Below, one piece after another: positions 28,616 to 28,988 of a DNA stretch of 36,720 nt. Made by a program: the position numbers and the translations under genes. How positions within the stretch are numbered: position 1 is the first letter of the stretch; every line of letters starts with the position of its first letter. The notes beneath the pieces are model-generated. The model had not been told where the DNA came from. It did not search any database and saw nothing but the letters and a program-made list of their open reading frames with translations. Location of the stretch: positions 1 through 36,720 of the IMG/VR virus record IMGVR_UViG_3300029258_003252. One strand, given 5' to 3'. Origin of the DNA: a virus.

Positions 28616-28713
28616 TTTTCTGTCTGAGTCGAAAAAGCTTTCTGGTGCCCGCTTATATGTGCGGGCGAACATCCTAATTATGTTTGTAAGCTCGTTCTAT
28701 GTGAGACAGAAAA
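28616..28713 (-). ncRNA. Y-type element Y3: tRNA-like RNA without T-arm
   Basis: P2 TTTTCTGTCT/AGACAGAAAA formed by the ends, box CACATAG opposite TCGACTC, P1 AGCTT/AAGCT, TTACAAACAT. The interior holds only two hairpins: AACAT-(7 nt)-ATGTT and GCCCGC-ACATATAA-GCGGGC, the latter followed by ACCA. No T-arm and no sensible anticodon loop, so it cannot be a normal tRNA. Best described as a Y-RNA-like tRNA mimic. Confidence 0.6.
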
Positions 28714-28715
28714 GT

Positions 28716-28804
28716 GGAGGGGACCGGATTCGTGGCAATAACACCTAGTTTGTATGCTTTGCGATTTCTCGTCCAAGTTGGAAAAGCCGGAAACTTTTCC
28801 CCCC
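28716..28804 (-). pseudogene. X-type element X3: decayed tRNA with D-loop insert
   Basis: Acceptor-like GGGGGGA … TCCCCTCC, then the module at 28748-28788 with P1, AACTT, P2 5' strand and GAAA loop, and TACAAAC, but the P2' end and second box are deleted. The anticodon arm is missing and the T-arm region is scrambled (CCACGAATCCGG). A dead member of the X series. Confidence 0.55.
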
Positions 28805-28815
28805 ATCTATAATTT

Positions 28816-28854
28816 ACGGTTGCTCGTCCTTTTATTCGGAGTCAACACAACCGT
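28816..28854 (-). ncRNA. Stand-alone module hairpin (Z)
   Basis: ACGGTTG/CAACCGT (7 bp) encloses TGTTGACT and ACGAG around a short CC-(8 nt)-GG helix. It keeps the GACTC box of the array module but has no tRNA attached and no TACAAAC. It may be a remnant or a minimal form. Confidence 0.4.
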
Positions 28855-28866
28855 AGGGTTTTAATT

Positions 28867-28988
28867 AAATCCGCCCGAGTCGAAGGAGCAGTCCCCACTG
28901 GCACTTAGGGCCAGCAGGGTGCCCGGCATTCATCGCCGGGCCAAACATCCGAAGAGTTTGTAAGCTCTCATCAGTATGGGACGGAAAA
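28867..28988 (-). ncRNA. Y-type element Y4: cloverleaf-like RNA with terminal stem
   Basis: P2 TCCGTCC/GGGCGGA from the ends (extendable by flanking T/A), box CATACTG opposite TCGACTC, P1 GAGC/GCTC, TTACAAAC. The interior has three strong hairpins: CAAAC-(9 nt)-GTTTG, GCCCGGC-GATGAAT-GCCGGGC, and a 10-bp hairpin around loop CCTAAGT. Two 7-nt loops sit where anticodon and T loops would be, but neither has U33 or TTCRA. A tRNA-shaped non-tRNA. Confidence 0.6.

Follow-up and report, generated by a model that had tools for sequence, protein, structure and literature searches.

Y RNAs are known as the lids and tethers of Ro60 rings, gating being one of their established roles, and YrlA is known as a tRNA look-alike with D, T and acceptor arms. 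Circularly permuted tRNA genes occur in red algae and archaea. Published work describes YrlA as a Ro60-binding stem joined to a domain that resembles tRNA and has D, T and acceptor arms, and reports Ro60-family proteins in some jumbo phages and YrlA carried by phages (PMC8394870, PMC7790460, PMC7824862, PMC7765460); in two of these, tethering is given as a Y RNA role (PMC7790460, PMC8394870). The theta ribozymes of phage tRNAs are described as small structured RNAs with a fold like that of hepatitis delta virus (HDV) (PMC10879173). Here, two RNA elements, Y3 and Y4, are compared with these systems. They lie on the minus strand of a viral contig of 36,720 bases (IMGVR_UViG_3300029258_003252; the window, by which we mean this whole stretch of DNA), and an earlier note had described them as tRNA-shaped, probable tRNA mimics that cannot decode. 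We consider it probable that both are Y RNAs standing alone, which would dock through a rod they have in common onto a divergent Ro60/Rsr ring protein encoded by the phage. The array that surrounds them is more unusual than Y3 and Y4 themselves.

The rod shared by Y3, Y4 and their sister units

In Y4 (28988-28868, minus strand) the outer stems P1 (UCCGUCC/GGGCGGA) and P2 (GAGC/GCUC) enclose three inner hairpins, CAAAC..UUCG..GUUUG, GCCCGGC-GAUGAAU-GCCGGGC and CUGGC-CCUAAGU-GCCAG, the last of which is seen in the centroid structure. The minimum free energy (MFE) is -56.4 kcal/mol with a z score of -4.2, and none of 200 shuffled sequences is equally stable. Both 7-nucleotide (nt) loops have A or C at the place where U33 would be, and a UUCRA T-loop is absent. 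Y3 (28718-28613, minus strand) has a P1 of 10 bp, a P2 formed by GAGCUU/AAGCUU and the inner hairpins AACAU-AAUUAGG-AUGUU and GCCCGC-(8 nt)-GCGGGC, after which ACCA follows; its MFE is -33 (z -6.6), again with 0/200 shuffles equally stable. Folding therefore bears out the three strong hairpins and two 7-nt loops on the P1/P2 stem, without U33 or T-loop, that had been described for Y4, as well as the two inner hairpins and the ACCA after a stem described for Y3.

Common to Y3 and Y4 is a rod made of P1, a conserved internal loop (RACUU/CCNAC), P2, the sequence UACAAAC and P3. Its two half-motifs, approximately CCGUCCCCNAC-n5-RRGCUUACAAAC (half-2) and AGCUU-n4-RACUUGGACGG (half-1), are present in every tRNA-like unit on the minus strand from 29120 to 27724. 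A rod that closes at P1, frequently with GAAA, interrupts a tRNA, mostly in the D-loop (setting A); where P1 is instead formed by the ends of the unit, the cargo lies beyond P3 (setting B). The tabulated units number 43 in seven records, namely the window (7 units), five other viral records (LR756511 with 13, L004 with 7, L005 with 3, L006 with 6 and L041 with 4) and the planctomycete Zavarzinella (L009, with 3). They divide into 19 A units, in not all of which a tRNA can be recognised, and 24 B units, whose cargoes by reading are nine whole tRNAs, five permuted tRNAs with anticodon arm and ten tRNA-free inserts, Y3 and Y4 included. A decayed unit between Y4 and Y3, one unit in G396 and several matches found by model only stand outside this count; the stretch 28616-28988 in which two elements had been noted thus takes in a third (28745-28799).

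The firmest evidence that Y3 and Y4 belong to this class comes from a covariance model, R2, made from seven units that all lie outside the window. R2 recovers both Y3 (E 3.2e-8) and Y4 (E 3.7e-6) over the intervals given in Table 1, with E-values that are rough because calibration was short; in an unfiltered run on the window alone, Y4 reaches an E-value of just 0.088 over a shorter match. This is a cleaner test than the alignment statistics, in which 92% of cells are paired in the A units (17 rows), with two-sided changes in 39 where shuffling gives 12.7 on average (0/500), and 96% in the short B units (7 rows), with 15 where it gives 4.3 (0/500), since the alignment rows were picked by the UACAAAC motif and partly by P1/P2 complementarity, so that both features are flattered. 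In slid controls, pairing falls to 34-49% (A) and 27-48% (short B). P3, scored as GUU upstream of P2, is found in 28 of the 43 units when 10 are expected by shuffling, a count in which Y3 and Y4 are misses because of the hairpins between their P3 and P2.

From the side of tRNA the result is negative. ARAGORN calls neither element as tRNA, and the Rfam tRNA model finds nothing in either stretch at E<=10, while neighbouring tRNAs do match. Rfam YrlA has no match in the window at E<=1, hence none for Y3 or Y4, and in these Rfam searches the T, acceptor and D arms of a tRNA-like domain are absent from both. A counterpart of Y4 is found at the same place in another virus (L004; L036:8040-8150, minus strand, E 1.2e-8), directly after a tRNA-Phe unit. 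It retains P1, P2, the UUCG-capped P3 and one GC hairpin, lacks the second GC hairpin of Y4, and has the 7-nt loop CAGAAGA where Y4 has GAUGAAU. No same-place counterpart of Y3 was found in other records. In the eight other short tRNA-free units (three in LR756511, three in L006, one in L041 and one in L004) there is only a small P3 hairpin, except in that of L004. What is conserved in Y3 and Y4 is the P1/P2 rod; the arm-like hairpins and a cloverleaf are not conserved.

It is, from these data, improbable that Y3 and Y4 mimic tRNA or act as decoys which soak up host tRNA-cutting enzymes. Their stems are perfect, other units of the array do contain tRNAs, and the YrlA tRNA-like domain may, as one paper suggests, inhibit an anticodon nuclease (PMC7790460). 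Against this stand the missing matches to tRNA and YrlA models, the hairpin set that changes in the Y4 counterpart, and the small P3 hairpin that is all most stand-alone units elsewhere possess. The earlier note was right that Y3 and Y4 are structured, conserved and unable to decode; its description of them as tRNA-shaped finds no support. Homologues with canonical anticodon and T-loops in the same positions, which it had named as evidence against mimicry, are not seen at the Y4 counterpart. Its idea of Y RNAs combined with tRNA mimicry holds for the sister units, some of which carry genuine tRNAs, and is not supported for Y3 and Y4.

Another way to account for units without tRNA would be deletion, Y3 and Y4 then being remnants of element-flanked tRNA units. 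The decayed unit between them, the likeness of the ACCA of Y3 to a tRNA 3' end, and the AAAC of P3, which is the acceptor start in whole-tRNA units, speak for such an origin. It is nevertheless improbable, when P1, P2 and the internal loop have stayed whole, and covary, in units without tRNA from four records other than the window, when the folds are as stable as their z scores of -6.6 (Y3) and -4.2 (Y4) imply, and when another virus has the Y4 counterpart at the same position.

The Ro60-like gene and the comparison with YrlA

Y RNAs are encoded together with a Ro60-family protein, and the same neighbourhood is found here. Downstream of the array in the window lies a gene (Table 1) whose homologues, 53-73% identical, occur in every element-rich record, and in all seven it follows the array on the same strand. 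The gap is 85, 372, 708, 968 or 1065 nt in the five cases for which it was computed, and a few hundred nt, from coordinates, in the other two. When a profile of the seven proteins is compared with the PDB, the best matches are human RO60 (E 3.2e-4), Deinococcus Rsr (0.016) and two TROVE entries (0.09). When an AlphaFold model built from six of the seven proteins is submitted to Foldseek, the top 12 are all of the Ro60 family, among them the Ro60 of Thermus phage phiLo (PDB 9l5y), in alignments of about 12-16% identity. Pfam detects a weak vWA domain, and vWA_Ro60 in two of the seven. By profile and fold similarity, then, the product appears to be a divergent Ro60/Rsr-like protein below Pfam TROVE detection; it resembles Ro60/Rsr proteins in these matches and in its N-terminal helices and vWA domain with a DKSSSM site, and differs from them in its low identity and in escaping the TROVE family.

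Two of the seven records, G003 (E 1.5e-4) and LR756511 (E 0.013), also have an element hairpin in the 5' untranslated region of the Ro60-like gene, at the ribosome site (L037 12481-12546 and W01 287258-287292). This fits autoregulation by an element-binding protein and adds to the support for Y RNAs given by the R2 recoveries, the compensatory changes above shuffles, the strict neighbourhood of the gene and the matches of its product to Ro60. The end-pairing stem with conserved unpaired bases, typical of a Y RNA, is seen in the covariation, in the internal loop and in the folds of Y3 and Y4.

Kinship with YrlA (RF02553) can be followed further in the sister units. For a permuted unit of Zavarzinella (L009 7183-7305), which lies beside the Ro60-like gene, Rfam YrlA gives a match covering positions 1-114 (42 bits, E 7.9e-8), and the tRNA-like part of permuted units is matched in G002 (8.8e-5), G396 (0.0076) and LR756511 (0.10). 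Since 13 of the 14 control genomes likewise contain weak YrlA matches, only the full-length Zavarzinella match carries weight. Set against the Ro-binding sequence known from bacterial Y RNAs, the 3' strand of the element, RACUUGGAC, resembles the YrlA 3' strand aAcUuGucGcc, and the 5' strand differs. As in YrlA with its Rsr, there is a long end-to-end stem for a Ro60-family ring and a gene beside a Ro60 gene, and five permuted sister units have the YrlA arrangement of T-arm, acceptor and D-arm, with the anticodon arm kept. In contrast to YrlA, a tRNA-like domain is missing from Y3 and Y4, and an anticodon arm is present in full in the permuted units; the stem has another sequence on its 5' side and is also found within tRNAs of ordinary order, and scores stay under the family cut-off. 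Y3 and Y4 are best classed as a variant of bacterial Y RNA and not as YrlA, whose cut-off they do not reach and whose tRNA-like domain they lack. No description of Ro-stem/tRNA chimeras was found in the literature searched, which did not include the main YrlA papers. Two more YrlA-like units lie near a Pfam TROVE gene on Zavarzinella contig C16 (L057, about 19188-19427), one copy with a CUGUUAA loop like that of an Asn anticodon.

Several observations weigh against Y3 and Y4 as Y RNAs of a phage Ro60. Pfam TROVE leaves the Ro60-like gene unmatched in all seven records, the single Zavarzinella match being another gene. The AlphaFold model is poor (predicted local distance difference test, pLDDT, 66.8; predicted template modelling score, pTM, 0.37), and VIA-align, whose rows are mostly single vWA domains, ranks Rsr first (Z 15.1) in a tie with single vWA domains, with a root-mean-square deviation of 17.6 over the whole length. 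The YrlA gathering score of 69 bits is reached in none of the seven records, the 42-bit match included, and the weak matches in controls count here as well. The element 5' strand, GUCCCCNAC, is unlike the YrlA 5' strand cgaAUGC, and the stem is out of register in the Zavarzinella-YrlA alignment; the YrlA match therefore rests chiefly on the tRNA-like part. To these are added the way in which the alignment rows were picked, and the fact that binding by the Ro60-like protein is something we infer.

tRNA cargoes of the array

Table 1. Features of the element array and its neighbour gene in the window
Feature	Position	Strand	Structure and evidence
tRNA-Phe(GAA), element in D-loop	28991..29120, core 29043-29107	-	R1 60.2 bits (member of model); ARAGORN Phe(gaa) after in silico removal
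Y4, stand-alone element unit	28867..28993	-	UUCG-capped P3 and two GC hairpins; P1 starts 28988; R2 match and fold
Decayed element unit between Y4 and Y3	28745..28799	-	R1 E 5.1e-5; flanks with acceptor-like stem; no tRNA in any excision
Y3, stand-alone element unit	28616..28718	-	P1, internal loop, P2, UACAAAC, P3 hairpin, one GC hairpin, ACCA; R2 match and fold
tRNA-Arg(TCT), element in D-loop	28471..28609, core 28529-28594	-	R1 74 bits (member of model); ARAGORN Arg(tct) after removal
tRNA-Ser(TGA), whole, element halves either side	28341..28467, tRNA 28371-28440	-	Rfam tRNA 46.3 bits; P1 and P2; fold z -3.2; anticodon by eye
Small open reading frame in array, about 77 aa	28042..28275	-	Also in LR756511 (L001 5860-6096), sequences compared side by side; no Pfam match
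tRNA-Asn(GTT) interrupted by element	27851..27974, core 27904-27969	-	R1 66.4 bits (member of model); ARAGORN Asn(gtt) after removal, regular D-arm missing
Whole tRNA called Asn(ATT), element halves either side	27724..27852, tRNA 27751-27821	-	ARAGORN; Rfam tRNA 51.2 bits; R2 E 5.1e-7
Ro60-like ring protein gene (candidate)	25820..27352	-	N-terminal helices and vWA domain, DKSSSM metal site; downstream of array

The element meets tRNA in three settings: inside interrupted tRNAs, around whole tRNAs and at the ends of permuted tRNAs. When it is removed in silico from interrupted units, ARAGORN finds a tRNA in 11 of 16, of which about six have a regular D-arm, some solutions being without D-arm or drawing on upstream bases. 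The whole-tRNA cargoes start within the AAAC of the element, which means that the acceptor stem doubles as P3. In all five permuted cargoes a tRNA is found when the ends are joined and none in the linear order (L009 7150-7310 and 6900-7040; L041 420-590; L005 5690-5840; L001 7720-7880). The phage cargoes of this kind correspond to Lys(UUU), Ile(GAU) and Leu(UAA), and CCA is encoded in that for Leu; the two of Zavarzinella (L009), Met-like and Ser/Pro-like, have anticodon loops of 8 and 6 nt and may for this reason be non-decoding. By reading, tRNA-like cargoes of Zavarzinella formosa at L009 7530, 7296 and 7018 have anticodon loops of 6 or 8 nt, in which the phage cargoes differ. Like the permuted tRNA genes known in red algae and in archaea, the permuted units have the 3' half before the 5' half and a short linker; unlike them, they are enclosed by a Ro60-type stem, belong to phages and to a bacterium, and show no evidence of splicing.

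Under a quite different reading, the element would be an excisable module, a tiny intron-like or self-processing RNA that is cut from tRNAs with joining of the halves. Its removal would circularise the permuted tRNA exon, and Y3 and Y4 would be copies without exon. The 11 of 16 rescues and the five joined permuted tRNAs, none of which exists in linear order, are what it would lead one to expect; the varied insertion sites (D-loop before or after GG, position 26, variable loop, anticodon stem) are well explained by it, and circular permutation is typical of small ribozymes. Yet only about six of the 11 tRNAs have a regular D-arm, several joins leave extra bases, no single splice site suits all units, and whole-tRNA and stand-alone units would gain nothing by excision. 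At E<=10 the array has no match to the ribozyme and intron families of Rfam; it shares with theta ribozymes a small structured RNA adjoining phage tRNAs (PMC10879173) and differs from them in that no ribozyme of any kind is matched.

The ligase RtcB was not found in the window, G001, G002, G003 or LR756511 (595 kb), a search that left out G396. Zavarzinella has four, none near the array, and RtcB is present in nine of 14 control genomes, so that its absence from the phages is unremarkable alone and neutral to weakly unfavourable for excision. YrlA, itself a permuted tRNA-like RNA, needs no splicing, and a Ro60-like neighbour is not predicted by an excisable module. It was the finding of this neighbour that moved the mini-intron view, initially favoured, to second place, and we now regard excision as unlikely. 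The same low probability attaches to a portable module of about 60 nt that is removed from tRNA precursors with help of the Ro60-like ring; if this were true, phages and a planctomycete would make working tRNAs from interrupted and permuted genes, and Y3 and Y4 would titrate or regulate the machinery.

The half-element pattern occurs in Zavarzinella only among 392 planctomycete genomes. An A-type match is found in 0/294 planctomycete genomes, with a model that misses Zavarzinella too and is therefore blind to flanking-type units. GenBank phages have no near match to window 24000-36720, and a distant search gave one record. Several candidates fall outside the seven records: L007 and L008 were dropped, as single half-motif matches with the partner half missing; L042 has weak partial matches only, and the match in L040 is limited to P1 and loop strands. 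L039, a contig from the same metagenome as L004, carries a single divergent element (1594-1659), which has the sequence UACAACC and lies in a tRNA-like gene; a search of that contig gave no Ro60-like gene.

Some elements and neighbouring structures stand apart from tRNA. An A-type element at L005 6000-6100 has flanks that pair as a stem (GGGGGAGUAGG/CCUACCCACCCC) and no tRNA, and elements at L001 6585, 6453 and 6368 lie amid short reading frames, also with no tRNA. Those at 6453 and 6368, which seemed to break a short reading frame, were considered as protein-gene introns; no homologue was found for comparison and no claim is made. In the window, a hairpin ACGGUUG/CAACCGU, the loop of which contains remnants resembling the half-motifs, lies between Y4 and the decayed unit (28820-28868). 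A long hairpin lies between two Zavarzinella units (L009 7343-7404), with several weak Rfam microRNA matches. Elsewhere in the window are a group I intron (35163-35352, Rfam 57.9 bits) adjoining a tRNA-Lys gene and a small bacterial signal recognition particle RNA (18803-18892, Rfam 49.9 bits) on this phage contig.

Proposed action of the probable Y RNAs and their tRNA relatives

Under the reading of Y3 and Y4 as Y RNAs of a phage Ro60, the rod, from P1 through the RACUU/CCNAC internal loop and P2 to UACAAAC and the start of P3, would be the protein-binding stem, and the variable part beyond P3 would be an effector end, which either gates the ring or presents an RNA to it. In Y3 and Y4 this end would consist of the UUCG or GC hairpins, which may gate the Ro60-like ring or hold a partner; in the sister units it would consist of whole or permuted tRNAs. 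When the stem is fused to a real tRNA, in the D-loop, around the acceptor stem or at permuted tRNA ends, the tRNA would thereby be loaded on the ring. The array would then yield a set of Ro-tRNA and Ro-Y RNA particles, the end purpose of which may be protection or repair of phage tRNAs during tRNA attack.

What differs from the Y RNAs described above is a Y-type stem that is fused in three ways to anticodon-bearing tRNAs, beside probable stand-alone Y RNAs and a Ro60-like gene. The class can now be detected with a covariance model, in a phage setting where attack on tRNA and its repair are active questions, and it forms a compact natural series for asking whether Ro60, when it acts on tRNA-like RNA, stores, protects, repairs or destroys it.
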